58,845 nt of DNA from Clostridiaceae bacterium BRH_c20a (GCA_000961765.1 LADT01000040.1:1-58845); one strand, 5' to 3'. Counted from the first letter of the stretch, positions 4,833-23,588 are shown. Translations and numbers: made by a program. Notes: a model not told the origin generated them from the sequence alone.

Positions 4833-5860
4833 TGGGGGTGGGACCCATAAATAAACATAGTAAGGTTTTGTCCGGAAATATTATAATCCAATAACAAGTA
4901 TCCGGGAGTATTATTTTTGAACCTAAAATCCTTTAATCCATAAGTTACAGTTGCATCTTTGCCTAATGGTACATAGTCAATTTTTAGACTGTGTGGGTGT
5001 CTTTCAACGACCTCTAGACCTGCTAGCAGTACTGAATTATATAAGGTGCTTGATACTTGACAAATACCTCCTCCTAGTCCTGGTGAAAATTCGCCACCTA
5101 ATATAATCATGGCCATTAAGTATCCCCGTTCTTGCTCGCGAGGACCAACAGTTTCATTAAATGAGAATATTGTTCCCGGAGGCATTAGGAGTTTTTTCAT
5201 ACTTTCACAGGCTAATCTAATATTTTCCGTCCTATTTTCATTTTTCACAAATTTTGTAGTATATTGAGCTAATAATTTATCCGGCTTTAATAAATTTATC
5301 TCTTTTTCACTAACTACAGGTTCCACAACAACAATGGGAATAATATATTCATTTTTTAATGGATTTTCCATGATAATTTTTTTTAACAAATCAATCTCCA
5401 TCTTATTACCCTTTAAACCTGGTTTGGTTACTATTTGACCACTAACTACCTCAAAATACGCATTTTGAGGAGCTATACTTACCCCTTGGCCAATTGCTCT
5501 TAAGGCCTCAGTTATTTTATTTTCATCAATAGCTTTTTCTAAATTAAATTGGCTTTCCTGAAAATTCATTACTACCCTTTGCCAGATCCCTCTACCTTCC
5601 AATTGTTCAAAGGTGCCTTTAAAATCAATGCTAATCCCTAGTTCTTCGGGAGATAATGAACTAACAAAGGTCTTATAGTAAAATTTTATCCTTTTATAAT
5701 GTTCGGCTATTTTTTGCTCAGCCTCTTGGAGTGTTAAACCACCTATATCAATACCTTCAATAGAAACATTGGCAGGTATTGTACCGGAATAAGCATATCC
5801 GGAGATAAACAGAAAAGAAAATAAAAAGATAAATAATAATACAGGGAAATATTTTTTCAT
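4829..5860 (-). CDS. VanW family protein with N-terminal YoaR-like domain
   Basis: Exported or membrane-anchored protein of 343 aa. Residues 1-25 are a signal/anchor helix. Residues about 30-190 match the peptidoglycan-binding-like (YoaR) domain, including VSIEGIDIGGLTLQEAEQ. Residues about 195-320 are the VanW domain, with FSFNETVGPREQERGYL and GGGICQVSSTLYN. VanW proteins are common in Clostridia; a cell-envelope role is assumed but the reaction is not known. A strong AAGGAGG site precedes the ATG. The gene lies head to tail with capA in the same orientation, about 58 nt apart. Confidence 0.85.
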   Translation of the reverse strand: MKKYFPVLLFIFLFSFLFISGYAYSGTIPANVSIEGIDIGGLTLQEAEQKIAEHYKRIKFYYKTFVSSLSPEELGISIDFKGTFEQLEGRGIWQRVVMNFQESQFNLEKAIDENKITEALRAIGQGVSIAPQNAYFEVVSGQIVTKPGLKGNKMEIDLLKKIIMENPLKNEYIIPIVVVEPVVSEKEINLLKPDKLLAQYTTKFVKNENRTENIRLACESMKKLLMPPGTIFSFNETVGPREQERGYLMAMIILGGEFSPGLGGGICQVSSTLYNSVLLAGLEVVERHPHSLKIDYVPLGKDATVTYGLKDFRFKNNTPGYLLLDYNISGQNLTMFIYGSHPH

Positions 5861-5918
5861 AAAAAAATCCTCCTTTGCCTCAGAAAATTCTATGCAAAAG
5901 AGGAATACTAATAGAACC

Positions 5919-7115
5919 TTATTTGAAATTTATTAAGGTAGGTAACCACCATTTAGGGTCAGTTATTGGCAGGAAATTATTAGCCCATATACTTAGGATA
6001 CTATTGAAGCTATTATCATAGATTACTGGCTGCCATATTGCTTTCACATCGTTTTCGACCTCGGCAGCTTTTTTTAATTCAGCAGCACTTAGAAGTACAT
6101 TTAGAGGTATCTCTTCCTTTACGGGTACAACCTCCATTCGCAATCTCCCCATATTTACATAACGCCTAACCCAGATAGGTGTATAATCTATTTTAACGAT
6201 TTTTGGGCGATTATCTAGAATGGATTTTTCAATAACCAATTCCAGGATAGCCCCGCCATCAGTAAATCTTTGTTTCTGACCCGAGACAAAATTACCTAAT
6301 GAATAGACAACAAAACTTTTTTTTCCATCTATATCAATAAATTCAAAGGGCTGCAACACATGGGGATGGCTCCCTAAAATTATATCAGCACCAGCCTTTG
6401 CAATTTCATATGCTACAAGTCTTTGTTCATCACTGGGGCTTTGCCAATATTCATTACCAAAATGAATTCCCACAACAACCATGTCTACTAATGGCTTTAA
6501 ATTAATGATATCCTCGGTAATCTTTTCTAGATTGATATAGTTAACTAAATATTCTTTATCTTTAGGGGCTTTTAATCCATTGGTACCATAGGTATAATTT
6601 AGAAAACCAAAGGAAATGCCCTTGGCTGTTATTATTCGAGGTTTTTCACGATCCTCTTCACTAAGAAAAGTACCGGTATGGGAAATATTGTTTTCTTCAA
6701 TAATTTCAATTGTACGTCTTAGCCCAAATTCGCCTTTATCCAAACTATGGTTATTTGCCGTAAAAAGCATATCAAATCCCAATTTGCTAAGAGTTTCCGC
6801 CAGATTATCAGGGCTGTTAAAACGGGGATAACCTGAATAACCTAATTTAGGACCGCTTAAGGTGGTTTCAAGATTACCTACTAAAACATCTGCATCTAAA
6901 TTTTCCTTAATCAGTTCAAACATTGGTAAAAAATCATAATTTCCTGTTTGCCAGTCATAAGCTGAGCGGTACTGAACATCATGAACCATTATATCTCCAA
7001 CTACTTTAAAATTAACCCGCTGTAAAAGAACTGAACTAAAAGCAGGATTAATAATAACAGATGAAGATAATGAGATAATTATAAAAGTAATTAAAACTAT
7101 TAATCTATTCTTCAT
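5919..7115 (-). CDS. CapA/PgsA-like metallophosphatase family protein
   Basis: A 398-aa protein with an N-terminal signal/anchor (about 1-28) and a CapA domain of the calcineurin-like metallophosphatase fold. Visible motifs are KVVGDIMVHDVQY (first metal-binding strand), VGNLETTL, FTANNHSLDKGEFGL, VVVGIHFGNEY and GSHPHVLQPFEF, then YSLGNFVSGQ. CapA/PgsA proteins take part in poly-gamma-glutamate or capsule synthesis, but no pgsB or pgsC is nearby, so the role here is not settled. It is a single gene upstream of the VanW gene and may be co-transcribed with it. Confidence 0.85.
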   Translation of the reverse strand: MKNRLIVLITFIIISLSSSVIINPAFSSVLLQRVNFKVVGDIMVHDVQYRSAYDWQTGNYDFLPMFELIKENLDADVLVGNLETTLSGPKLGYSGYPRFNSPDNLAETLSKLGFDMLFTANNHSLDKGEFGLRRTIEIIEENNISHTGTFLSEEDREKPRIITAKGISFGFLNYTYGTNGLKAPKDKEYLVNYINLEKITEDIINLKPLVDMVVVGIHFGNEYWQSPSDEQRLVAYEIAKAGADIILGSHPHVLQPFEFIDIDGKKSFVVYSLGNFVSGQKQRFTDGGAILELVIEKSILDNRPKIVKIDYTPIWVRRYVNMGRLRMEVVPVKEEIPLNVLLSAAELKKAAEVENDVKAIWQPVIYDNSFNSILSIWANNFLPITDPKWWLPTLINFK

Positions 7116-9547: not shown

Positions 9548-10282
9548 ATGGTTTTGAGAAGAATTGTTAAGATTAATGAAGAAAAGTGTAACGGATGTGG
9601 TTTGTGCGTACCTGCCTGCCATGAAGGGGCAATGGAAATTATTAATGGTAAAGCTAAACTTTTGGCTGAAAAGCTTTGTGATGGGTTAGGTGACTGTTTA
9701 GGTGAATGCCCATTAGGTGCTATTGAGATTATTGAAAGAGAAGCAGATGAATTTGATGAAATAGCTGTTAAAGAAAGACTAAAGGAATTAAACAGGGAAA
9801 CAACGCCTAGCGGTGCATGTCCTGGAACAAAACCACAGTTCTTTGGAGGCTGCCCCGGAAGCAGGGCACAGTCTTTTGAACCAGAAGAAACAGCCTCTGA
9901 AAAAGCAAATATAAATTCAGAGTTGAGACAATGGCCCGTACAACTGCACCTAGTTCCAGTAAATGCACCTTATTTCCAAAATAAAGATTTATTAATTGCT
10001 GCGGACTGTGTACCAATTGCTTATGCTAACTTTCATCAGGAACTATTAAAAGGTAACGGAGTAGCAATAGCATGTCCAAAACTTGATAATACAGTACCCT
10101 ATGTAAAAAAACTAGCTGAAATTATTAAACTAAATAATATTAAAAGTGTTACTATAGCGAGAATGGAAGTTCCATGCTGTGGTGGGTTGAGTATGATTGT
10201 TAAACAGGCAGTCCAAGAAGCAGTGGCTAATGTTACTGTAGTTGAAAAAATAATTGGTGTTAGAGGAAATATTTTAAACTAA
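9548..10282 (+). CDS. 4Fe-4S protein with C-terminal Cys-rich redox-like domain, hcp-linked
   Basis: A 244-aa soluble protein. The N-terminal ferredoxin domain has a complete CNGCGLCVPACHEGA motif and a second motif CDGLGDCLGECP, in which one usual Cys is replaced. A linker about residues 95-125 carries two CPG/SxxxQ(F/S)F repeats. The C-terminal domain (about 140-244) has isolated Cys in AADCVP, AIACPKLDN and MEVPCCGG. The next gene encodes this C-terminal domain alone. The family is often met beside hcp in anaerobes; electron delivery to Hcp is a reasonable guess but not shown. Its promoter carries the same operator as hcp. Confidence 0.75.
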   Translation: MVLRRIVKINEEKCNGCGLCVPACHEGAMEIINGKAKLLAEKLCDGLGDCLGECPLGAIEIIEREADEFDEIAVKERLKELNRETTPSGACPGTKPQFFGGCPGSRAQSFEPEETASEKANINSELRQWPVQLHLVPVNAPYFQNKDLLIAADCVPIAYANFHQELLKGNGVAIACPKLDNTVPYVKKLAEIIKLNNIKSVTIARMEVPCCGGLSMIVKQAVQEAVANVTVVEKIIGVRGNILN

Positions 10283-10312
10283 GGTAGACTAACAAGTCTA
10301 CCTTAGTTTTTT
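10278..10312 (+). terminator. Terminator of the hcp-linked ferredoxin gene
   Basis: ACTAAGGTAGACT-aaca-AGTCTACCTTAGT, a 13-bp perfect stem followed by TTTTT. Confidence 0.9.
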
Positions 10313-10364
10313 ACTTTATCATTCCTTCTTTTTCTTACATATTCTAGAATGAGGAGTGATAAAA

Positions 10365-10733
10365 ATGAGCAATGAAAATTTTTCTAACTGTGGATGGCCC
10401 TTTTATAAAATTACAGCTTCACAAGCAAAAGAAGTAAATGAATTGTTATTAATTGCTGAGTGTGTATCACTAGTATATCTGAACTTTTATCAGGACTTTA
10501 TTAAAGAAAAAAACTCGGATATAATATGTCCAAAAATGGATAATAACAGCCAATGTGTAATTAAGCTGGCAAATATTATTAAAAACAGTAAGATTGATAA
10601 AATTATCATAATTAGAATGGAACAAAAGTGCTGCTGTTATTTATCAAATCTCGTTAAAGACGCACTAAATACAGCAAATAAATCAGTCCCAATCATCGAA
10701 AAAATAGTGAATCAAAAAGGAATAATTAGTTAA
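10365..10733 (+). CDS. Stand-alone paralogue of the C-terminal Cys-rich domain
   Basis: A 122-aa protein that aligns along its length with residues about 140-244 of the preceding gene product. Shared landmarks are LLIAECVSLVYLNFYQDF versus LLIAADCVPIAYANFHQEL, ICPKMDN versus ACPKLDN, and RMEQKCCCYLS versus RMEVPCCGGLS, then EKIVNQKGII versus EKIIGVRGNIL. The Cys-pair site has gained a third Cys (CCC). The ATG at 10365 has GGAG 8 nt upstream, preferred over the GTG at 10356. It has lost the ferredoxin part, so it probably arose by partial gene duplication. Function is unknown; the conserved Cys suggest metal or Fe-S binding. Confidence 0.7.
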   Translation: MSNENFSNCGWPFYKITASQAKEVNELLLIAECVSLVYLNFYQDFIKEKNSDIICPKMDNNSQCVIKLANIIKNSKIDKIIIIRMEQKCCCYLSNLVKDALNTANKSVPIIEKIVNQKGIIS

Positions 10734-10805
10734 TTCTTTTTTGTTGCAACAAAAAGGAAAAATATCTAAACTATAGGTATCGGTTGATTGGGAGGTCATT
10801 TTATT

Positions 10806-11903
10806 ATGGATATTGAAAAAATCGCAGAGCTTTTACAAAACCTGTCCCCAGTTACTATTAGACCTCAGCTATGCAGCAAAGTGATAACACCAAAATCTAC
10901 TTGTACCAATTGCCAAAATATCTGTCCAGTAAATAGTATTACCTTTACCAGTATTGGTCTTAAAGCAGATCAATGTATTTCCTGTGGTCTTTGTATTGAA
11001 GCCTGTCCTAATCACGTTTTTCGCCTCAATGAAAGCAAACTATTAGGTATAAGTACCAAGGAAACCCCGACATTAATAATTACCTGCTCTTTACTTCACC
11101 AAAAATTGGAGAAAAGAAATCAAGGTTATGTCACTCAAATCAGTTGTTTCGGCGAGTTCTATCCTGAATTATTAGTATATTTGCTTACTTCTAATTCTCG
11201 AATTTTGTTAATTCATGACCCAGATAATTGTAAAAATTGTCTAGCAAAAAGCCTAGAGGAGAAAGTGAATATTAATCAATATGCACATATTTTTAATATT
11301 GATTTTACAAGCAAGCTTCAGGTTATCAATAATTTAGATGATCTTAAGCCGTATATAGGTACCCCGGAAATACAACCAGCCCATGATAGGCGATCATTTT
11401 TCAAATCTATCTTTAACGGCTCAAAAAACATGTCTAAACAGATTTTAGATTCTGCTTTAAGCCGGCAGAATAGCAATAAAAAGGACAAGGTACAACCCTT
11501 AAAAAGATACTATTTATTAGAAGCTTTAAAGAAACAAGAAAACCTGGAATTATCGGCTCTCCTGCCTTATCCCCAACTAAATATTAATACTTGCAACTTC
11601 TGTGGTGCTTGCAGTAAATTATGTCCAACAAAAGCCATCGAGATAATACAAGAAGATGAGAAAAAAGTAATCACCTTCACGCCAAACCTATGTACCCACT
11701 GCCATGTCTGTAGTGATGTTTGCTTCTTCCAAGGTCTTTCCTGGGGTCAAAATATTACAGTGGGTGATTTCTTAGATAAAACACCCCTATTGTTAGCATC
11801 AGCAGCTCAAAAAACCTGTGAGAACTGTGAGCAGGAATATTATGACCTAAATGATAAAAATAATTTATGTTTTCTTTGCCGCCCCGTTCAAGATGTATTT
11901 TGA
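10806..11903 (+). CDS. Multi-cluster ferredoxin-type protein (four 4Fe-4S motifs plus Cys4 tail)
   Basis: A 365-aa soluble electron-transfer protein. N-terminal motifs are CTNCQNICPVNSI and CISCGLCIEACPNH (about residues 30-70). The middle (about 85-165) has Cys in TCSLLHQK, SCFGEFYPEL and DPDNCKNC, an arrangement like the MvhD (hydrogenase delta) family. Two more ferredoxin motifs, CNFCGACSKLCPTKA and CTHCHVCSDVCFF, follow at about 255-310. The end carries CENC and CFLC, a zinc-ribbon-like pair. The start at ATG 10806 follows a GGGAGG site. It is the last gene of the hcp block; the partner enzyme is not evident. Confidence 0.7.
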   Translation: MDIEKIAELLQNLSPVTIRPQLCSKVITPKSTCTNCQNICPVNSITFTSIGLKADQCISCGLCIEACPNHVFRLNESKLLGISTKETPTLIITCSLLHQKLEKRNQGYVTQISCFGEFYPELLVYLLTSNSRILLIHDPDNCKNCLAKSLEEKVNINQYAHIFNIDFTSKLQVINNLDDLKPYIGTPEIQPAHDRRSFFKSIFNGSKNMSKQILDSALSRQNSNKKDKVQPLKRYYLLEALKKQENLELSALLPYPQLNINTCNFCGACSKLCPTKAIEIIQEDEKKVITFTPNLCTHCHVCSDVCFFQGLSWGQNITVGDFLDKTPLLLASAAQKTCENCEQEYYDLNDKNNLCFLCRPVQDVF

Positions 11904-12194: not shown

Positions 12195-12427
12195 TTTATT
12201 TACCCCAATCCTAAACTTAAAGAATATCTACCCTATCGTCTGTCCTAAACAAAGACAGGGGAAATTTGAATTCCCATAAGTATGTGCCTTCTGAAAAAAC
12301 GGTTCAGTACAACACGAGTAATTCATGCCCAATACACCAAAAAACGTGTTTTATCTTTACCCCTTAATTTAAAGTAAATCGAAAGGGCCCTTGAAGATAA
12401 ATTAACACAGAAGATAAATTAATGCAT

Positions 12428-12456
12428 TTGCAAAATTACGTAATTACGGATATACT
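12428..12456 (+). promoter_or_regulatory. Promoter with embedded palindrome for the toxin-antitoxin operon
   Basis: TTGCAA (12428-12433), 17 nt, TATACT (12451-12456). The spacer contains the perfect palindrome AATTACGTAATT (12434-12445), well placed for autorepression by the AbrB-type antitoxin. A 13-nt direct repeat GAAGATAAATTAA lies just upstream. Confidence 0.6.
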
Positions 12457-12487
12457 ATGATTACAAAATATAATAGGAGTGATCCTC

Positions 12488-12772
12488 ATGTCAGGTGCCT
12501 CCCATAAGATCTTCGTTCAAAAACGAAATCTCATAAGCCTTCCCAGAGACATTAGAGAACAACTTAATATTAATGAAGGAGATGTACTCAATGTTCGGAT
12601 GGATAACAATAAAATTATCATTGAACCGATGAAGCTTATTCCTGCTAGTCAGGCATACTTTTGGTCCGAAACTGCTCAAAATGATATGTTTGAGGCCAAA
12701 AAAGATGTTGATGCCGGAGATGTTCGTGAGTTTAAAAATATTAGTGAATTTCTTGATGGCAATAAACAATGA
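12488..12772 (+). CDS. AbrB/MazE/SpoVT-type antitoxin
   Basis: A 94-aa protein. Residues about 5-45 form a swapped-hairpin AbrB DNA-binding domain: FVQKRNLISLPRDIREQLNI then EGDVLNVRMDNNKIIIEPM. The C-terminal part, rich in acidic residues and ending in FLDGNKQ, is likely the toxin-neutralising tail. GGAG lies 8 nt before the ATG at 12488, so the GTG at 12479 is not used. The gene overlaps the toxin start by 4 nt (ATGA), giving translational coupling. It probably binds the palindrome in its own promoter. Confidence 0.8.
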   Translation: MSGASHKIFVQKRNLISLPRDIREQLNINEGDVLNVRMDNNKIIIEPMKLIPASQAYFWSETAQNDMFEAKKDVDAGDVREFKNISEFLDGNKQ

Positions 12773-13035
12773 CCAGACGATTTAGATCTACTCGGAAATT
12801 CGATAAGCAGTTTAAACAGCTAGATTCAAAATCTTCGAAACAAGCAGCGAAAGCTATTGAACTATTCATCTCCGACCCCAGCCACCCCTCCTTAAGATTC
12901 AAAAAAATCCAAGGAACAAACAACTTCTATGAAATTAGCGTTAATATGTCAATTAGAATTGTCGTAGAAGTAACTACTAAAGAAAACGACCAGATTATCA
13001 TTTTCTATATTATCGGAACCCATGACCTTTGGTGA
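12769..13035 (+). CDS. RelE/ParE-superfamily toxin (YafQ/cytotoxin type)
   Basis: An 88-aa basic protein of the RelE fold: RRFRSTRKFDKQFKQLD at the N-terminus, then PSHPSLRFKKIQGTNNFYEI, MSIRIVVEV and the C-terminal IFYIIGTHDLW. These are typical of small mRNA-interferase-like toxins. Its start codon overlaps the antitoxin stop. AbrB-type antitoxins paired with RelE-type toxins are a known type II combination. The pair lies on the plus strand next to a minus-strand cassette-like region, a position common for stabilising toxin-antitoxin modules. Confidence 0.75.
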   Translation: MTRRFRSTRKFDKQFKQLDSKSSKQAAKAIELFISDPSHPSLRFKKIQGTNNFYEISVNMSIRIVVEVTTKENDQIIIFYIIGTHDLW

Positions 13036-13215: not shown

Positions 13216-13348
13216 CTAACGTACCATCGTACCAAGTTTCTCGTTCTTAGTAACTATAATATATTCTCCTGTCGGATTTAATTGCATGTTAACATACTCT
13301 TTGTCTTGGTAATCACACACTATCCCGGACCCGTTAGTGGGAATGGAA
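13216..13348 (-). pseudogene. Unidentified ORF remnant joined to an attC-like half-site
   Basis: The minus frame reads SIPTNGSGIVCDYQDKEYVN then MQLNPTGEYIIVTKNEKL to a TAG stop. Its first codons are the attC-like half element itself, so this looks like a deletion junction that fused the repeat to the 3' end of another gene. The protein family is not recognised. Confidence 0.3.
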
Positions 13349-13359
13349 GTGTTATGCGT
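13318..13359 (-). repeat. attC-like element C (one arm only)
   Basis: Contains CCGGACCCGTTAGTGGGAAT and then GGAAGTG before TTATGCGTC. It matches the arms of elements A (13891-14007) and B (16299-16426) at most positions. Read on the minus strand it starts with GACGCATAAC, complementary to the first bases of the cassette that ends here (TTATGCGTC at 13896-13888). The distal arm is missing. Confidence 0.55.
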
Positions 13360-13373
13360 CGTCCACTAAACTG

Positions 13374-13847
13374 TTAACCGAGCCTTTCCAACGTTCCGAT
13401 ATAGCCCTCTAAATCCTTATTGGCTATAATCTCATAATTTGCTGTTCCCGGCATTGAACGTTTTGTCATAAATTTCATTGCAAATGATTTTGAATACTTT
13501 TGGGCACTCAAAAGACTATTCCATTCATACATCCCCTGAAAATATCCATCCTTTTCGTCTATCATCCATAGCTTAGCCTTAAATCCTGGCAAACCTATGA
13601 AAAAGGGAATTGGAATAAGCGAGAAAACTTTATTACGTTCTGGAGTCATATTAGCTAATAGAAATCTCACCTTAAAAATCGCGGGAGATGGCGAAATCGA
13701 TTCTGACTTTACAATTGCATGTCTAAAAATTGAAAATTCTCTTCCGTCTTCCATTCTATAGGTTTCACCAATTCGCTCTTTAGGAAAAATAAGATTACCC
13801 GTCATAAAATAACTTAATGATTTTAAAAAAGACCTAAAAGGATTCAC
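13374..13847 (-). CDS. Hypothetical protein, cassette-borne
   Basis: A 157-aa protein starting at GTG. A hydrophobic stretch lies near residues 70-95 (LIPIPFFIGLPGFKA). The sequence KLWMIDEKDGYFQGMYEWNS is reminiscent of dimeric alpha/beta-barrel monooxygenase-like proteins, but this is weak. The stop is 20 nt from an attC-like element, and the start is about 50 nt from the boundary of the next one. Both boundaries carry complementary 13-mers (GGATGACGCATAA versus GGACGACGCATAA on the same strand, 12 of 13 identical). This is the layout of an integron gene cassette. Function unknown. Confidence 0.6.
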   Translation of the reverse strand: MNPFRSFLKSLSYFMTGNLIFPKERIGETYRMEDGREFSIFRHAIVKSESISPSPAIFKVRFLLANMTPERNKVFSLIPIPFFIGLPGFKAKLWMIDEKDGYFQGMYEWNSLLSAQKYSKSFAMKFMTKRSMPGTANYEIIANKDLEGYIGTLERLG

Positions 13848-13890
13848 TCTTTTCCCTTCTTCCTAATATTAATCTTTATATATGGATGAC

Positions 13891-14007
13891 GCATAACATT
13901 CCCGACGCTCACCGACCCCAACGCCTGACCCCATAGGGTGAGTGTGGTCCGGCATGCTACCTGACTATATTAACCCGGACCCGTAAGTGGGAATGGACGT
14001 GTTAAAT
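13891..14007 (-). repeat. attC-like element A (117 bp)
   Basis: Read on the minus strand it begins ATTTAAC, a perfect RYYYAAC core, and ends GTTATGC. The outer stem is ATTCCC/GGGAAT. Inside are a GGTCCGG...CCGGACC hairpin and a CTCACC/GGTGAG hairpin. It is highly similar to element B. An 8-nt piece near the GTT end that is present in B is missing here. Confidence 0.6.
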
Positions 14008-14069
14008 GAAGTCAGAATCTTGTATAATCATGCTATAAAAAAATAAAAGGCTAACTAAGTTTGTCAGCC

Positions 14070-14366
14070 TCAAGTTGCTAAATTCATATTTACTTTAGGT
14101 TCTTTAACTTCTGGACATGAATTATAGAGTTCTTCAGGATCTAAATCTAAACAATTAGAGGGATCAAACTTACCCGTTAAATCCCAAGCCAAAGTATCGT
14201 TTAAAACAGTACAAGAATTTTTAAATAAATCAAGATTTTGAAGTTGCCGAAAAACTCCCTTTTTTATAATTTCAGAAGCATCAAAAAGTTTAATCTTACC
14301 ATCAGCGAAATAAATATATACTTTGTAATCATCGGTTGGTACTACTTGTAAGACTTTATGAAACAT
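14070..14366 (-). CDS. DUF2442 family protein
   Basis: A 98-aa protein that matches DUF2442: VVPTDDYKVYIYFADGKIKL, FDASEIIKKGVF, then TLAWDLTGKFDPSNCLDLDP. The gene follows the DUF4160 gene by 11 nt. The two families are repeatedly found as an adjacent pair and have been proposed to act as a toxin-antitoxin-like or regulatory couple; the biochemical role is not established. An attC-like element lies 60 nt after its stop, so the pair may be an integron-type cassette. Confidence 0.8.
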   Translation of the reverse strand: MFHKVLQVVPTDDYKVYIYFADGKIKLFDASEIIKKGVFRQLQNLDLFKNSCTVLNDTLAWDLTGKFDPSNCLDLDPEELYNSCPEVKEPKVNMNLAT

Positions 14367-14377
14367 ATAGCACCTCC

Positions 14378-14638
14378 TTAAATTAATGGGTTAATCTTGA
14401 TAAATTCATTATTTTCTCGACCATTCTCCCAATTAACCATTAATTCATCCCTATGAATTTCACACCAAGCTAATACAAGTTTGAGTTGTTTTGATGGGAA
14501 AACCCCTTTTAAGACTGTAGCATTCTGAATATCTACCAATATTTTGTTTTCCCCATACTCAGCGTGAAAATGAGGAGGATAATGCTCATTCCAGAACATC
14601 ATTATCTTTATTCCATAGAATTCACTTATTATTGGCAT
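14378..14638 (-). CDS. DUF4160 family protein
   Basis: An 86-aa protein: MPIISEFYGIKIMMFWNEHY, PPHFHAEYGENK and KLVLAWCEIHRDEL are the hallmark segments of DUF4160. The chosen ATG at 14638 has GAGGAG about 8 nt upstream; a TTG three codons earlier is less likely. It is translationally close to the DUF2442 gene. The paired PPHFHA motif could bind metal. Function unknown. Confidence 0.8.
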   Translation of the reverse strand: MPIISEFYGIKIMMFWNEHYPPHFHAEYGENKILVDIQNATVLKGVFPSKQLKLVLAWCEIHRDELMVNWENGRENNEFIKINPLI

Positions 14639-14740
14639 GCACAACACTCCTCAACAATAATTATAACCCAAATCGCGGTAAATTTGAAATAATACCATAC
14701 ATTTTTACTTTTTTAAAATCCAAGTTCCGTTGAATAGTAG

Positions 14741-14788
14741 ACTCCGTCCGGCTTTAGCAATTTTTTACAGTGAAAAACACCACGGAGT
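14741..14788. repeat. Stem-loop between DUF4160 and GNAT genes
   Basis: ACTCCGT (14741-14747) pairs with ACGGAGT (14782-14788). It sits where an attC element would be expected between two cassettes, but no RYYYAAC or GTTRRRY core remains. It may be an eroded attC or a simple terminator. Confidence 0.35.
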
Positions 14789-14804
14789 GTGGCTCCTAAA
14801 AAAA

Positions 14805-15305
14805 TTATAAAACTTTTTCATAACAATTAAACGGAAGCTCCCTCCATGGAAAGCATAATTCACCTGTCTTTTTATAATCTCTTTTTTCATAAAAGCTTAA
14901 AGCTCTTAAATTTCCGGTATATGCGTCTAATCTAATTGCCTTATAGTTGTGTTCTCTTGCATATTCCTCAGCATAATACATTAATTTTCTAGCATATCCT
15001 TGACTTTGATATTTTGGATTTATAGCTAATCTATGTATAACCAAAACTCTTTCATCTTTTGAAATCCAATCAATTTTACTATATTCTGGAGATTGGTTCT
15101 CGTCTAAAACAATTATACCTAATATTCCATCCTCATTTCTAATCAGAAATAATGAATTATTAAGAATATCATTTTCAAATACTACTGTAGTCGGGTAATA
15201 TTCATTCCATAGAAAAATATTCTGATTTTCCATATCTTGAATAACTGATTGTATTAGGTCCATAATTGAACTTAAATCTTCTAAAATTCCTTTTTCTATT
15301 TTCAT
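14805..15305 (-). CDS. GNAT family N-acetyltransferase
   Basis: A 166-aa acetyltransferase. The acetyl-CoA binding motif is visible as VIHRLAINPKYQSQGYARKL (Q/RxxGxG/A type), followed by YAEEYAREHNYKAIRLDAYT and NLRALSFYEKRDYKKTGEL. GGAGG lies 5 nt before the ATG at 15305, so the upstream GTG is not needed. GNAT genes are among the commonest integron cassette cargo. The substrate is unknown. Confidence 0.85.
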   Translation of the reverse strand: MKIEKGILEDLSSIMDLIQSVIQDMENQNIFLWNEYYPTTVVFENDILNNSLFLIRNEDGILGIIVLDENQSPEYSKIDWISKDERVLVIHRLAINPKYQSQGYARKLMYYAEEYAREHNYKAIRLDAYTGNLRALSFYEKRDYKKTGELCFPWRELPFNCYEKVL

Positions 15306-15399
15306 ATTATCCTCCACAAGTATCGCTTCATTTTTTTCTCCAGAGACCTACCATAAGTCACTCACGCCATGAATGGCGCGGAAAAATGTGTTCAATTTC

Positions 15400-15523
15400 A
15401 ACTAACGTTTTGCACTCGCAGCGCCGAGAGCCTTAGCTAGCTCTTAGCTTAGGATCACAGGTGTGGTGCTGAATTGCTTATAATATTCGCTTCTGCACCC
15501 TTGTGCTGAGTGCTGTGTTATCT
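15400..15523 (-). repeat. attC-like element D (124 bp)
   Basis: Read on the minus strand it starts AGATAAC and ends GTTAGTT. The inner arms are GCACTC-AGC and GCT-GC-GAGTGC, so two bases bulge out, as in attC sites with extrahelical bases. The sequence differs from A to C, but the boundary logic is the same: GCTACAACAGATAAC here matches the reverse complement of the start of the upstream cassette in 12 of 14 positions. Confidence 0.5.
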
Positions 15524-15553
15524 GTTGTAGCAACATAAATTCATATCTTGCAA

Positions 15554-16234
15554 CTATTCTATATTCAACATTTTTCTCATAAGTTCTTTATCAATCATTC
15601 CACTTTGATTTAATTGTTTAAACTGATTAAAAACATCCTCACTAATATTTGCTCTACCCCAAAACATTTTTTTCTTATCTTCGGACATAATCGGTATAAT
15701 CAAATATTTGTTTCTATCTACAATAAAATATCTGAAATATTTTTCATATTCATTACCGCTTATACCCATATCTGCATTATCTATTAAATCATATGAAAAC
15801 ACCATTTCTTGACTTGGTTTAGGTAACTTATCATGTTCAATTAATTCAGCATCTAATACGCTAATAGTTTTAAAGAGCTTGGATATTGCATTTTTATCGG
15901 CAATTATTTTTCTTCTCAACATTAACTCTTGGACTTGCTTTTCAATTTCATCTAGTTCTCTTTGGTCCTCATCACTTATTTCTCCTTTTTCTCTAATTCT
16001 TGTTCTAATAACATTTGCTGGTTGAGATACCTCTTCTAATTCACTTATTGATTCTGGAGTATTTATTATCATTAAATCAGGAACCTTGATAAAATTTAGT
16101 TTAATTATTTTGTTTCCAACACCAGTTAAATTATCTTTATTTGAATTTTGAGGATTATCTATAACTTTTGAACAGGCAGCAAATACAAAAAGTGTACTTA
16201 ACATGAAAATACATATAAAAATTTTTTTACCCAT
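15554..16234 (-). CDS. Lipoprotein, hypothetical, cassette-borne
   Basis: A 226-aa predicted lipoprotein. Residues 1-20 are a type II signal peptide with lipobox FAAC. The mature part is charged, with no recognised domain; it contains a helical stretch rich in Glu/Arg (REKGEISDEDQRELDEIEKQ). GGAGG precedes the ATG. The gene is flanked by attC-like elements B and D whose outer bases are complementary, so it appears to form one complete cassette of about 0.8 kb. Confidence 0.6.
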   Translation of the reverse strand: MGKKIFICIFMLSTLFVFAACSKVIDNPQNSNKDNLTGVGNKIIKLNFIKVPDLMIINTPESISELEEVSQPANVIRTRIREKGEISDEDQRELDEIEKQVQELMLRRKIIADKNAISKLFKTISVLDAELIEHDKLPKPSQEMVFSYDLIDNADMGISGNEYEKYFRYFIVDRNKYLIIPIMSEDKKKMFWGRANISEDVFNQFKQLNQSGMIDKELMRKMLNIE

Positions 16235-16298
16235 ATATCCTCCAAATTTTATTTTTAAAACTGCTTTTATATTTAAAAACTATAAAGCGAGCTATGAC

Positions 16299-16426
16299 AG
16301 ATAACGTCCCCGCCATTCCCGACGCTCAATCAACTTCAACGCCTTACTCAATAATGGTGATTGTGGTCCGGCATGCTCCCTGATTACACTATACCGGACC
16401 CGTAAGTTGGAATGGACGTGTTATCC
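16299..16426 (-). repeat. attC-like element B (128 bp)
   Basis: Minus-strand reading: starts GGATAAC, ends GTTATCT. Nested pairs are AAC/GTT, GTCC/GGAC and ATTCC/GGAAT, then an internal GGTCCGG...CCGGACC hairpin and a CAATCA...TGATTG hairpin. In element A the last pair is CTCACC/GGTGAG at the same place, so pairing is kept although sequence differs. Confidence 0.6.
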
Positions 16427-16490
16427 GTAGCTACGACAGATAGATTCTTGCAAAATTATATTCATATTTCGTTTACCTCAATACGATGGC

Positions 16491-16691
16491 TTAATTAAGT
16501 TTATTATTTATCAACCAGGACATCATGTAAAAAAACAATATTAAACCTACTCCCCAAGAAAGGGTTTTAATGACTTTTTCTTCCCACAGTTTCTTCTTCA
16601 TTTGATTTGAACTATCTAATTTATCATTGAGCATTGCTTTTGCGGAATCCTCATTACGAGTCCAGTCCCATGGTTCTCTCCCCATACCCAT
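16491..16691 (-). CDS. Small single-pass membrane protein, hypothetical
   Basis: A 66-aa protein. The N-terminal half is charged (REPWDWTRNEDSAKAMLNDK); one membrane helix lies at about residues 43-62 (LSWGVGLILFFYMMSWLI). It ends 64 nt from attC-like element B, so it may be the next cassette of the same array. Its upstream boundary cannot be found and is probably lost beside the IS3 remnant. No family recognised. Confidence 0.5.
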   Translation of the reverse strand: MGMGREPWDWTRNEDSAKAMLNDKLDSSNQMKKKLWEEKVIKTLSWGVGLILFFYMMSWLINNKLN

Positions 16692-16786
16692 AAAAAAACA
16701 TCTCTAAATCAGAATTAAAAATTGGATAGTGTAAAAACTTATCACCAATATTTGCACATTTCTTTACTTAAATCTTACCTTCGTAA

Positions 16787-19117: not shown

Positions 19118-19528
19118 CTATAGCTCACCATTTTTTACCCTTTTAATCAAATTCTCTACTTTCTCCTTGATAAGTTCCCTTGTGTTTCTATATCCTTCAA
19201 TGGGTCCCCCAGAGGGGTCCTCTAATCCCCAATCTTCACGGTGCTTTGAGGGAACATAGGGACATTCTACATTACAACCCATAGTTATAATAATATCTAA
19301 TTCTGGTGGTATATCAGTTAATAGCTTCGGTCGATGACCACTCATATCAATACCCATTTCTTCCATCACCTGTACTGCTCCTGGTTTAACTTCGGGGTAA
19401 TTTTCAGTTCCAGCCGAATAAGCTTCTAAATGATCACTTCCTAAATACTTTGCCCAAGCTTCCGCCATTTGTGAACGGCAAGAATTATGAACACAAACAA
19501 AAGCAACCTTTCTTTTTATAATAAACAC
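19118..19528 (-). CDS. arsC: Arsenate reductase, thioredoxin-coupled (LMW-PTP fold)
   Basis: A 136-aa cytosolic enzyme reducing arsenate to arsenite. The P-loop CVHNSCRSQMAEA holds the nucleophilic Cys and Arg (CX5R). The redox Cys pair is in MGCNVECPYVP, and DWGLEDPSGG supplies the catalytic Asp. The start is uncertain: the GTG at 19528 overlaps the AAGGGGG site, and the conserved part begins five codons later. It follows arsR by 18 nt. Confidence 0.92.
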   Translation of the reverse strand: MFIIKRKVAFVCVHNSCRSQMAEAWAKYLGSDHLEAYSAGTENYPEVKPGAVQVMEEMGIDMSGHRPKLLTDIPPELDIIITMGCNVECPYVPSKHREDWGLEDPSGGPIEGYRNTRELIKEKVENLIKRVKNGEL

Positions 19529-19546
19529 CCCCTTTATATTTTTATA

Positions 19547-19915
19547 TTATTTTTTTAATTTTTCTTTTTTATCCTTAATTCTTTCATTGGAATCTATATT
19601 TAATAATCTTTGAAATTCTTCTTCATATCCTTCTAAACCTTTTAAATCTGCATCAAGGAATGCTAGGAACTGATTCCATAACCGATGAAGTCTTTCTTTA
19701 TCTAAGGAATAATATACCCAGTATCCTTCTTTACTTTCTTTCACCAGTTCAGCGTCCTTAAGTATTTTTAGGTGCTGGGATACTCTAGGCTGCAGCATAT
19801 CTAATATTTCACTTAATTCACATACGCACATACTTTGCACTGAAAGCATTTTAATAATTTTTAATCTTGTTGGTTCTCCTAGGGCCTTAAATGCTTTATA
19901 TATGTTTTTTTCCAC
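19547..19915 (-). CDS. arsR: ArsR-family repressor
   Basis: A 122-aa winged-helix metalloregulator. The As(III)-binding CxC is in SMCVCELSEIL at the start of the recognition region, next to LQPRVSQHLKILKDAELV. It starts at GTG with GGGAGGG upstream. It represses its own operon until arsenite binds. The palindrome upstream is the likely operator. Confidence 0.92.
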   Translation of the reverse strand: MEKNIYKAFKALGEPTRLKIIKMLSVQSMCVCELSEILDMLQPRVSQHLKILKDAELVKESKEGYWVYYSLDKERLHRLWNQFLAFLDADLKGLEGYEEEFQRLLNIDSNERIKDKKEKLKK

Positions 19916-19948
19916 ATTTCACCCTCCCTAAATACAAAAACCATTTTA

Positions 19949-19981
19949 CTATATAATAATATTATTTTTATTATTGTTCAA
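19949..19981 (-). promoter_or_regulatory. arsR promoter and operator
   Basis: Minus strand: TTGAAC, 17 nt, TATTAT, with the perfect palindrome AATAATATTATT (19955-19966) overlapping the -10 region. ArsR-family operators are AT-rich imperfect palindromes of this sort. Confidence 0.55.
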
Positions 19982-20009
19982 GTTTTATACTTAAAAGCCC
20001 TTTTTTACC

Positions 20010-21179
20010 TTATCCGACAATACTACCAAAAATCATACCGCTGATTGTTGCCATAATTACGACTAGTGTAACATAAGTTACTGTCTTCTTCGTACCCATG
20101 ACACTTCTAATTACTAACATGTTAGGTAAGCTCAATGCGGGTCCTGCTAGTAACAATGCTAATACTGGTCCCTTGCCCATACCGGCCCCCATCAAGCCTT
20201 GAATAATAGGTACTTCTGTCAATGTGGCAAAATACATAAAGGCTCCTACAATTGAGGCAGTGAAATTTGCTGCTAAGGAATTGCCACCTACAATAGATGA
20301 TATCCAGGCTGCTGGTATTATGCCACCATTTGTATTTGGACGACCCATTAAGAACCCGGCCACTAATACACCAACTAAAAGTAGCGGGAGAATTTTTTGA
20401 GCAAAATCCCAGGAAGATTCAACCCATAGCCTTAATTCCTCTGTAGTAAACCAGCGAATAAGCATATAAGCGAGAATTGCCAATAAGGCAAAGGTTATAG
20501 GCCAGTGGACCTTATATACCGCATACCAAAAGCCTTCTGGAGATTGGGGCATAGCCCAGGCAGCAAAAATCAGAATGAATACGAGATTTGCAAAGTATAA
20601 TAAGTTTTGCCAGCCGCTTCTTCTTTCTTCTTCTTCAAAGCCGCCAAACTCTACGCCTTCTCTTTCAGCATCTTCCTTGCCATAAATTAAAGCCATTATT
20701 AACCCAATAATTATCGCAAATACTACTGCACCAATGGCTCGGGCTACACCTAATTCCCAGCCAAGAACACGAGCGGTAAGAATTATAGCTAAAACATTTA
20801 TTGCCGGTCCAGAATAGAGAAAAGCAACAGCAGGACCTATACCGGCACCTCTTTTATATATACCGGCAAAAAGGGGCAGAACTGTACAGGAGCAAACCGC
20901 TAAAACTGTTCCTGATACAGAAGCTACTGAATAAGACAACCACTTTTTTGCACTTGATCCGAAATATTTTAATACGGCATTTTGAGAAACAAAGATAGCA
21001 ATAGCTCCAGCGATAAAAAAAGCTGGTATTAAGCAAAACAAGACATGCTCTCGTGCATAATCTCCTAACATTTTAAAAGCTTCTAAAGTAGCTACTTCTA
21101 CCCGTGGATTGCTAAAAGGTATTAAATAAGCGGCTAGAAAAACGCTTAAGTACAAAACAAATTTTTGCCACTCTTTCAC
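20010..21179 (-). CDS. Permease of the DUF318/ArsP-like family
   Basis: A 389-aa membrane protein with about ten helices. A cysteine cluster CSCTVLPLFAGIYKRGAGIG and the conserved FLYSGPAINVLAI match the YraQ/ArsP permease family, some of which export organoarsenicals or arsenite. The start is taken at GTG 21179, 6 nt after GGAGGAG; the TTG at 21194 overlaps that site. A 7-bp hairpin (GGAACGG/CCGTTCC, 21202-21223) lies in its leader. It is the first gene of the permease-arsR-arsC run. Confidence 0.8.
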   Translation of the reverse strand: MKEWQKFVLYLSVFLAAYLIPFSNPRVEVATLEAFKMLGDYAREHVLFCLIPAFFIAGAIAIFVSQNAVLKYFGSSAKKWLSYSVASVSGTVLAVCSCTVLPLFAGIYKRGAGIGPAVAFLYSGPAINVLAIILTARVLGWELGVARAIGAVVFAIIIGLIMALIYGKEDAEREGVEFGGFEEEERRSGWQNLLYFANLVFILIFAAWAMPQSPEGFWYAVYKVHWPITFALLAILAYMLIRWFTTEELRLWVESSWDFAQKILPLLLVGVLVAGFLMGRPNTNGGIIPAAWISSIVGGNSLAANFTASIVGAFMYFATLTEVPIIQGLMGAGMGKGPVLALLLAGPALSLPNMLVIRSVMGTKKTVTYVTLVVIMATISGMIFGSIVG

Positions 21180-21260
21180 TTTAATCTCCTCCAATTTTTG
21201 CGGAACGGCGAGAGCACCGTTCCCTACTATATAATTATATACTTATATGGTATTGTTTTA

Positions 21261-21284
21261 AAAACATCCTATCACGGATGTTTT
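21261..21284 (-). terminator. Terminator after the small thioredoxin gene
   Basis: AAAACATCC-tatcac-GGATGTTTT, 9-bp stem, with T residues on either side; it separates the thioredoxin transcript from the permease gene. Confidence 0.8.
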
Positions 21285-21292
21285 TAAAACAA

Positions 21293-21532
21293 TTACATAG
21301 AAGCTGTGATAATTTTTGTTACTTCTGCTTTAGATGGCACTTTTCCAGTCGATTTTACTTTTCCATCAATTATTAATCCAGGTGTCATCAAAATCCCTGT
21401 TTTAGCAATTTCATTGATATCACTCATTTTTTTGATAACTGCATCCACCTTAATATCACCTACAGCTTCTCTGGCAATTTCCTCAAGCTTTTTACACTTG
21501 GCACAACCTGTGCCAACGATTGTTATTTCCAT
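21293..21532 (-). CDS. Small thioredoxin-like protein
   Basis: A 79-aa redox protein of the archaeal-type thioredoxin family (MTH895-like): GTGCAKCKKLEEIAREA holds the CxxC, and MTPGLIIDGKVKSTGKVPS supplies the cis-Pro loop. In arsenic clusters such proteins sit next to a CcdA homologue and a DUF318 permease, as here. It probably passes electrons from CcdA to ArsC or another partner. AAGGAG precedes the ATG. Confidence 0.85.
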   Translation of the reverse strand: MEITIVGTGCAKCKKLEEIAREAVGDIKVDAVIKKMSDINEIAKTGILMTPGLIIDGKVKSTGKVPSKAEVTKIITASM

Positions 21533-21660
21533 GATTTCAAAACTCCTTTTTAAAAATTATATAACAGGAAGTACAGCCAAATATCCATATAATTAAATAC
21601 TTATGTAGTAATGGTAGCACTTTGATTTAATATATGCAAGATATAAAATATTCGGCCACC

Positions 21661-22353
21661 TTAAAATCCCAAATAAAACATATAAAATGCTAGCATTAAA
21701 ATTGCTCCGCCCATTGCATATTTTAAAACTTCACTAAATGCTCCGTACTTATTACTTGACGTAAGTTTCTTTACAAAACCAATTGATGTTCCTGCTATAA
21801 TTACTAGAACACTATGACCAATTGAATAAAGTAACAAAAGCAATATACCCCATGCAACATTACCACTTTTGGCAACGATTCCAAGTAATATAACAAGTAC
21901 CGGTGTTGCACATGGAGAAGAAAATACCCCGCCTAAAATTCCTGCAATAAATGCCCCAATGTAGCCTTTTTTGGTATTTTTACTTGATAGATATGTGGAA
22001 GGGATAAAATTATACACCTCCCATATTTGCAGTGCCATTAGGACCATTAGAACGCCTAATGCAATATACCACCAACTGCTGGATGTGCCCATAAGCTTAC
22101 CTAGCATTGAAGCAATTGTCCCAAGGGCGGTAAATGTTACTGCCATTCCCATAGCGAATGTTAATGATAAACGAAACGCCCTTCTGGGGTCATTGTTTCC
22201 AGTACCTCCTACATAACCGATAACAAGGGGTACACTAGATAAGGCGCAAGGTGTAACAGAGGTTAGGACCCCCGCAAGCAATGCAATGAGGGGTGCAAGC
22301 CAAATGCTCTGTGAAATGAGCTGTGATAATATTTCCAGCCACTGATCTATCAT
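21661..22353 (-). CDS. CcdA/DsbD-type transmembrane thiol-disulfide carrier
   Basis: A 230-aa membrane protein with six helices. One redox Cys is in GVLTSVTPCALSSVPLV and the other in GVFSSPCATPVLVILLG, the standard CcdA pair. It transfers reducing equivalents across the membrane, probably to the small thioredoxin encoded next. Its ATG overlaps the TGA of a short upstream reading frame (ATGA), a sign of former translational coupling. Confidence 0.85.
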   Translation of the reverse strand: MIDQWLEILSQLISQSIWLAPLIALLAGVLTSVTPCALSSVPLVIGYVGGTGNNDPRRAFRLSLTFAMGMAVTFTALGTIASMLGKLMGTSSSWWYIALGVLMVLMALQIWEVYNFIPSTYLSSKNTKKGYIGAFIAGILGGVFSSPCATPVLVILLGIVAKSGNVAWGILLLLLYSIGHSVLVIIAGTSIGFVKKLTSSNKYGAFSEVLKYAMGGAILMLAFYMFYLGF

Positions 22354-22466
22354 TCCTCCAACCCCATTTCTCTAAATACGTCAAGTATCATTTTCTCAGT
22401 CATGCCACCATTTTTTAAATTATCATAACTAAATTGTAATGTACTTATTTCTGAGGCGCAAGCCTT
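22350..22466 (-). pseudogene. 3' remnant of an unidentified gene coupled to ccdA
   Basis: The minus frame reads KACASEISTLQFSYDNLKNG then MTEKMILDVFREMGLEE and stops inside the ccdA start (ATGA). No start codon with a good site precedes the fragment before an in-frame TAA. It is likely the 3' end of a former upstream gene, or a 17-residue leader peptide from the internal ATG. Confidence 0.35.
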
Positions 22467-22676
22467 TTATACTTTATTTTCCAAATGCATATTATAAAAA
22501 ACGTACCTTATTAATAAATAAGGAATTTATTCTTGAAGAGAAAGCTCATGAATTAATGACTTCTACAAATAGTTTTTTGTACTTGTATTGCCAAAAGCCG
22601 TTTTTCGGAATAATATATTAATGGGTAATGCATAGAGCATATTCATATATGTCATTTTATGAAGGGGTAATAAACT

Positions 22677-23588
22677 ATGGATAATCTGGAAGCAACTTTT
22701 TATGTTTTTATTTATATTGCGGGAGAGTTGGCCCTTTTATTTATCGTCATTTCTTTTTTAATAGGTCTCCTGCAAGAGTATATTCCACCAGATAAAATAC
22801 AAAAAGTATTAGGTGGACAGCGCTATCCTATCGTTAACAATATTTTCGGTACTATTTTTGGTGCTTTGACACCCTTTTGTTCTTGTTCAACAATACCAAT
22901 TACTGTCGGACTATTAAACGGAGGAGCCCCCTTTGGAGCAGCTATGTCTTTTTTAATTGCCTCCCCTTTGTTAAACCCCGTTATTATTGCCCTTTTGCTT
23001 TCGTTGTTAGGTTTAAAAATTACAATTATCTACTTTTCTATTGTTTTTCTAGCTTCTGTTCTTACTGGAGTAATCTGGCAAAAAATGAACTTACAGCAGG
23101 AAATAAAAGAAGGTATTATTCAAAGCACTAGCTGCTGTGATTGTTCCCCTGTTGGCATTGCAGAAACAACAACAAATAAACAGAAAATTTCCAAAGCCTT
23201 TAAAGGAGCATGGAAATTATTTGCACAAATGCTGCCTTGGCTATTAGTTGGCGCCGCAATAGGAGCTGTGATTTATAGTTATATTCCCGAAGAATTAATT
23301 GTTAAAGTTGCAGGTCCAAATAATCCTTTCTCCGTTCCTATAGCAGCCGTTGTAGGTATACCAATGTACATAAGAGCTTCTACAATGCTACCCATTAGTA
23401 CAGTATTACTGGCAAAAGGTATGAATATAGGGGCTATCATGGCATTAATTATTGGAGGCTCCGGTGCCAGCCTACCGGAAGTTTCTCTTTTAAGCGCCAT
23501 ATTTAAGAAAAAATTTATTATAATTTTTGTTCTCACTATCTTCTTCTGGGCAACCTTTGCCGGGATATTATTTAATATTTTAATTTAA
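22677..23588 (+). CDS. Permease, DUF318/YraQ family
   Basis: A 303-aa membrane protein with about eight helices. PFCSCSTIPITVGLLNGGAP carries the family's CSC motif, followed by FLIASPLLNPVIIALLL. A loop about residues 150-160 carries CCDCS, a possible metal- or arsenic-binding site. It is a second, diverged relative of the permease at 20010. It is divergent from the ccdA-thioredoxin genes and forms an operon with the PadR regulator 39 nt downstream. Confidence 0.8.
   Translation: MDNLEATFYVFIYIAGELALLFIVISFLIGLLQEYIPPDKIQKVLGGQRYPIVNNIFGTIFGALTPFCSCSTIPITVGLLNGGAPFGAAMSFLIASPLLNPVIIALLLSLLGLKITIIYFSIVFLASVLTGVIWQKMNLQQEIKEGIIQSTSCCDCSPVGIAETTTNKQKISKAFKGAWKLFAQMLPWLLVGAAIGAVIYSYIPEELIVKVAGPNNPFSVPIAAVVGIPMYIRASTMLPISTVLLAKGMNIGAIMALIIGGSGASLPEVSLLSAIFKKKFIIIFVLTIFFWATFAGILFNILI

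Follow-up and report, generated by a model that had tools for sequence, protein, structure and literature searches.

attC-like sites and gene cassettes in the window

The window described here is a 58,845-nt stretch of Clostridiaceae bacterium BRH_c20a, which corresponds to contig C76 of a 4.51 Mb genome in 92 contigs. Between 13318 and 16691, its minus strand carries three complete attC-like sites (A, B, and C) and one truncated site (T), which lie among short open reading frames (ORFs) as in the gene cassettes of integrons. A sequence-only reading had placed four such elements here and proposed that they are the attC sites of integron-type cassettes, with no integrase close by; the four elements are borne out, and the proposal is supported by the analysis that follows. 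In the window sites, the R'' and R' boxes carry AAC/GTT and enclose an inner stem of L'' and L'.

Site C (16299-16426; R'' 16420-16426, R' 16299-16305) is the fullest copy and belongs to family 1 together with site A (13891-14007; R'' 14001-14007, R' 13891-13897), with which it shares 84% identity; site A has about 9 nt fewer in its right spacer. Site T (13318-13359, 28 bits) is related to both and retains R'' (13351-13357) and L'', while its 3' half is gone. Site B (15400-15523; R'' 15517-15523, R' 15400-15406) forms a separate subfamily, family 2, with relatives on two further contigs of this genome (C70 and C74) and in two other genomes (G123 and G292). A 14-base near-repeat, TATCTGTCRTAGCT, flanks site C at 16427-16442 and 16291-16304.

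All cassettes between these sites run on the minus strand. Cassette 1 (13352-13896) ends in site T and encodes a 157-aa protein with a weak YdhR-like match (13374-13847). The segment 13999-14671 is the 3' part of a cassette whose 5' end is gone, with a DUF4160 (DhiT-like) ORF at 14378-14647 and a DUF2442 ORF at 14070-14366. The segment 14672-15405 is the 5' part of another cassette, which begins at R' of site B, carries a GNAT ORF (14805-15317), and has lost its own attC. Cassette 3 (15518-16304) contains a lipoprotein-like ORF (15554-16234), and the 3' part of cassette 4 (16427-16750) contains a small ORF (16491-16691). The DUF4160 ORF scores 75.6 bits against the NCBIfam toxin DhiT, below the cut-off of 100, and may form a toxin-antitoxin pair with the DUF2442 ORF.

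As single strands, the bottom strands of the window sites have modest folding energies (z -1.5 to -3.8), and the case for attC therefore rests on boundaries, homology, and covariation. An Rfam search of 10-20 kb gave no match above threshold.

Cassette boundaries and complementary ends

The sequence-only reading had also claimed, for two ORFs, that the ends of the cassette are complementary beyond the core, and both cases hold at somewhat greater length, exactly on the R' boxes. The start of cassette 1, GTTATGCGTCATCCA, matches its end, TGGACGACGCATAAC, at 14 of 15 complementary positions (the T arm pairing with the start at 13897), and the start of cassette 3, which runs from site C to site B, matches its end (GTTATCTGTCATAGC and GCTACAACAGATAAC) at 13 of 15 (the B arm pairing with the start at 16305). 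Each pairing is the top match among all positions in the 3.5 kb upstream. The T and B arms score 12.5 and 10.0 with their own starts and at most 5 with the other two window starts. Under an extended start motif taken from recombinase-led arrays, the starts at sites A, C, and B beat 97.3, 97.9, and 99.8%, respectively, of the 527 GTTA sites in the window. No start was found for cassette 4 or for the cassette on C70.

Cassettes shared with other genomes

The DUF4160/DUF2442 unit at 13999-14671 has 82% nucleotide identity to a cassette in the array of G292, and the homology stops exactly at the R'' box, beyond which the attC differs. The earlier layout had treated 13999-15405 as one unit (cassette 2); because the G292 homology spans 13999-14671 only, this segment is a fusion of two cassettes. 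The outer edge of the cluster also requires revision. An AbrB/MazE-like and RelE/ParE-like toxin-antitoxin pair at 12426-13035, which lies on the plus strand and thus opposite to the other cassettes, has, over 12426-13025, 75% nucleotide identity to a cassette inside the G417 array, where it is reversed too. It is also homologous to a whole cassette on contig C74 of the same genome, whose ends are complementary at 15 of 20 positions. By this homology, the cluster reaches as far as this toxin-antitoxin cassette.

Two ORF sets of the window therefore occur as cassettes with different neighbours in arrays of Firmicute genomes from other families. An order of ORFs and elements fixed among genomes, with no sign of movement, would have spoken against cassettes and is contradicted by these occurrences. 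The sharing with G292, G417, and C74 is indirect evidence that the window cassettes move as units. An empty-site comparison with G002 yielded one shared flanking gene only.

attC sites and recombinase remnants elsewhere in the source genome

Two covariance models were built. R1 derives from five sites of the source genome, three of them in the window, and R2 derives from Firmicute arrays of other genomes and contains no source-genome sequence. The source genome was searched by models only. The sequence-only reading had called for a search for further copies and for intI. R1 found other attC copies at C70 16246-16375 (minus), C29 4564-4663 (minus), and C74 27915-28038 (plus, truncated), and R2 gave a match of 45.5 bits at C29:5580-5656 (minus). 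The IntI model TIGR02249 matched fragments only, the best at 82 bits against a cut-off of 265. The genome instead retains two decayed C-terminal pieces of a recombinase that lacks the IntI patch (described below), at C70:17136-17273 and C58:91804-91959, the former 0.8 kb before the site designated attC D.

A pattern search for family 1 in viral and genome contigs gave no match, in a search that may omit near relatives, and phage records gave one partial match.

Arrays in related genomes

Within the phylum, R1 sites occur in seven other genomes (G123, G292, G245, G310, G166, G379, and G417). The G417 array comprises at least 14 sites, and sites similar to its own are present in G292, G166, and G245. 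In 12 of 13 successive pairs in G417, the cassette start matches its own R'' at seven of seven positions; end pairing there mostly reaches 13-18 matching bases, compared with mostly 7-11 in G344, which served as an IntI control. Across 33 array sites from genomes of the phylum and the array-bearing locus L118, 95.6% of cells are paired, versus 26-44% when the partner is slid, and 10 of 11 pairs are compensated. Of the 398 genomes examined in the phylum, two (G344 and G165) have an IntI that exceeds the TIGR02249 cut-off, and neither bears arrays with these sites; no IntI exceeds it in the array-bearing G245, G292, G310, G166, and G417.

Those five arrays have a different recombinase, or its remnant, directly 5' and in the same orientation. 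The gene is frame-broken in G417 (851719-852803), broken in G310 (2137230-2138347), and cut off by a contig end in G292 (C11). Remnants lie at 1720261-1720739 in G245 and at 411262-411462 in G166, where the remnant heads the array. An intact copy is found in G035 (C70), with one candidate site 5 kb further on. A second G166 recombinase, at 666806, was considered as an array head and dropped, as an IS91 transposase follows it.

Some array loci carry cargo of separate interest. Locus L058 (G123:C21) contains at 778-2446 a single-attC cassette with a Thoeris-type pair, ThsB (TIR-like) and ThsA (macro), with PADLOC E values of 1e-73 and 5e-98, a family 2 attC, and ends that are complementary at 17 of 19 positions by eye. 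In L069 (G245; 5114-6475 and 9624-10970) and L231 (15732-17048), reverse transcriptase ORFs of group II introns are interspersed with attC sites or adjacent to them, a placement known from group IIC-attC introns.

The patch-less recombinase

The array-heading recombinase is a tyrosine recombinase of about 340-385 aa with SAM-like and catalytic domains. The region of the IntI profile that corresponds to the IntI additional domain, or patch (about 180-232), is unaligned in these proteins, which are therefore called patch-less here. They carry an N-terminal domain that resembles HARP. The Pfam HARP model matches 18 of 35 recombinases at E 0.1 or better, and an N-terminal profile has the HARP domain of SMARCAL1 (4o66) as its top PDB match (E 4e-4). 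The predicted fold of this domain returns the same top match with probability 0.98 and a Foldseek E of 0.04.

The closest PDB match of the whole predicted structure is IntI4 (2a3v). In a tree, the HARP recombinases group with IntI and with the recombinases of IS91-type elements, at a distance from XerC/D, and the core is also near archaeal XerA. IS91-type transposases stand beside small patch-less tyrosine recombinases at L036, L084 (789-2797), and L232 (10918-12860); these small IS91-associated recombinases are related to the array-heading family and are sometimes found beside arrays.

Association at scale and an attI-like site

A recombinase scan of 84,980 species genomes was reduced to 80 loci by keeping the best matches. 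These loci come from Bacillota (including Paenibacillus, Saccharibacillus, and Halonatronum), Bacteroidota, Nitrospirota, other bacteria, and some archaea. Over the 80 loci, R2 gave 54 matches with an E value of 1 or better, of which 48 are downstream on the recombinase strand (four of them, in L118, in or beside the R2 training set), five are downstream on the opposite strand (all in L116), and one is upstream. A home-made finder returned 52 sites downstream on the same strand versus seven downstream on the opposite strand, four upstream, and none in Markov-shuffled sequence. In the recombinase-led loci, R1 detected 19 sites, every one of them on the strand of the array.

attC sites are present in 33 of the 41 loci with at least 1.5 kb of downstream sequence. 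The contig ends less than 1.5 kb downstream of the recombinase in 39 of the 80 loci (L115-L194) and less than 1.5 kb upstream in five, an imbalance expected of repeat-rich arrays. With so many contigs ending early, draft genomes probably miss most of the arrays behind these recombinases. The same recombinase-array arrangement exists on a complete Chryseobacterium plasmid (NZ_CP041688.1); a Chryseobacterium oryzae plasmid carries the recombinase, and the home-made finder found no site there.

When the first attC is used to predict where the first cassette starts, the position falls mostly 70-270 bp beyond the recombinase stop codon and often behind a short dyad. First-cassette starts scoring at least 11 were obtained with own arms in 17 of 24 loci and with foreign arms in 0 of 552 comparisons. 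This junction beside the recombinase is an attI-like site.

Interpretation

The region is an eroding, integrase-less cassette cluster and very probably a relic of a second, patch-less integron lineage. It holds at least two attC sites with no integrase nearby, which is what defines a CALIN (the IntegronFinder term for attC clusters without an integron integrase), and its sites and cassettes are homologous to those of recombinase-headed arrays. The system seen in other Firmicutes consists of a patch-less recombinase whose N-terminus is HARP-like, an attI-like site past the 3' end of its gene, and attC-bounded cassettes that share its orientation. On this reading, the window cassettes belong to the cassette pool of that system, were cut off from the integrase, and are eroding.

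In the proposed mechanism, the attC bottom strand would fold so that R'' pairs with R' and L'' with L', and the recombinase would cut ahead of TT in G^TTANNNG. Cassettes would exit as circles through attC x attC recombination and enter at the attI-like site. HARP domains, as established for SMARCAL1, bind branched DNA or junctions of single- and double-stranded DNA, and the HARP-like domain may replace the IntI patch in recognizing the folded site.

One rival holds that the region is an ordinary CALIN of classical IntI cassettes, with IntI lost or acting in trans, and that the patch-less recombinase came along as an unrelated passenger. Firmicutes are known to have CALINs and, in Limnochorda, a complete IntI integron (PMC9024848), and IntI does occur in the phylum. 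Its restriction to two genomes without these arrays speaks against this rival, however, as do the position of the patch-less recombinase at the head of arrays with an attI-like junction, the end pairing in G417 that exceeds that of the IntI control, and the patch-less kind of the decayed copies in the source genome. These observations make an ordinary CALIN improbable. Far less probable still is mimicry of attC by dispersed palindromic repeats of the MITE or REP type or by terminal inverted repeats of a transposon. The several palindromic near-copies in the genome and the flanking near-repeat TATCTGTCRTAGCT at site C fit such elements, but each unit has end sequences of its own that pair with each other and with no other unit, no transposase accompanies the units, and the homology shared with another genome stops at the R'' box. 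The cassette-specific end pairing already contradicts this rival.

The remaining rival accepts the anatomy described above and denies one step of the mechanism: the HARP-like domain would be unrelated to recognition of a folded site, and the recombinase would act in an Xer-like manner on double-stranded sites. The attI-like sites often resemble double-stranded Xer-type dyads, and the closeness of the core to archaeal XerA points the same way. The stems of attC, in contrast, show strong covariation despite their variable sequence, a pattern that fits recognition by structure and not by sequence. The Xer-like alternative is possible but on the unlikely side.

Several observations weigh against a patch-less integron lineage as the source of the window cassettes. 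The window contains no recombinase and no attI, and R2 misses its sites A, B, and C, which have a longer variable stem. The attC finder is home-made, R1 was trained on as few as five sites, and the evidence for movement comes from comparison between genomes. No site appears in 8 of the 41 loci with sufficient downstream sequence. Several Firmicute array-heading recombinases are broken (G417, G310, G245, and the source genome), the HARP matches fall below the Pfam cut-off, and IS91-type elements carry patch-less relatives of the array-heading recombinase.

It is fairly probable that the patch-less system represents a second integron lineage in Bacillota, Bacteroidota, Nitrospirota, and other bacterial and archaeal groups, with an integrase that lacks the IntI domain and a HARP-like domain that recognizes folded attC, and that IntI-only searches account for many "integrase-less" clusters and for the presumed rarity of integrons among Firmicutes. 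If a patch-less recombinase does head Firmicute attC arrays, the absence of integrons there is partly a detection effect and many CALINs have an integrase. Recognition of attC would then have more than one solution, and integrons may have been overlooked in whole microbial groups. The system would also supply a concrete enzyme and site for cassette exchange in Gram-positive bacteria, including that of defence systems such as the Thoeris cassette of G123.

Other genes noted

Tyrosine recombinase genes stand next to one another in same-strand runs of three to four at L001, L005, L006, and L012 (the source genome's contig C41, 3719-7110), in a recombinase-in-trio-like arrangement. Near the window cassettes, at 19118-23588, inspection by eye identified a cluster of arsenate reductase-like, ArsR-like, two permease-like, and thioredoxin/CcdA-like ORFs.

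Comparison with known systems

Integrons are reported to be extremely rare in Firmicutes, a scarcity termed "intriguing"; the only complete one named is that of Limnochorda pilosa, and CALINs are known in a few genera (PMC9024848). An integron survey selected its integrases on the IntI additional domain (PMC2426708), and archaeal IntI retain this domain, which was termed necessary (PMC9668308). No prior description of a patch-less integron lineage was found in the open-access literature, preprints lying outside the search.

The array recombinases score about 210-237 bits against the NCBIfam model NF040815 (recomb_XerA_Arch, "site-specific tyrosine recombinase/integron integrase"; cut-off 220), and a Chryseobacterium plasmid protein is annotated with its name. 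The model is limited to the core, and its name is silent on attC arrays, the HARP-like domain, and the missing patch. IS91-family tyrosine recombinases share the patch-less core and the tree branch of the HARP recombinases, but no HARP-like domain is seen in them and an IS91 transposase follows rather than an array. The SMARCAL1 HARP domain is the top match of the N-terminal domain by both sequence profile and fold; it is part of a relative of fork-remodelling helicases rather than of a recombinase, and the similarity is weak.

Classical IntI integrons (class 1, Limnochorda, cyanobacterial, and archaeal) share the attC fold, the G^TT boundaries, cassette ends complementary to their own R'', and a single insertion point beside the recombinase, and IntI4 provides the closest solved structure. 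Unlike IntI, the array recombinase lacks the additional domain and has a HARP-like N-terminus, is encoded upstream of the array and oriented like it, and is accompanied by longer cassette-end pairing. The cluster resembles a CALIN in that attC sites bound small ORFs of the same orientation with no integrase nearby. It differs in that the matching intact arrays carry a recombinase left uncounted by tools built on IntI and are thus not really integrase-less.

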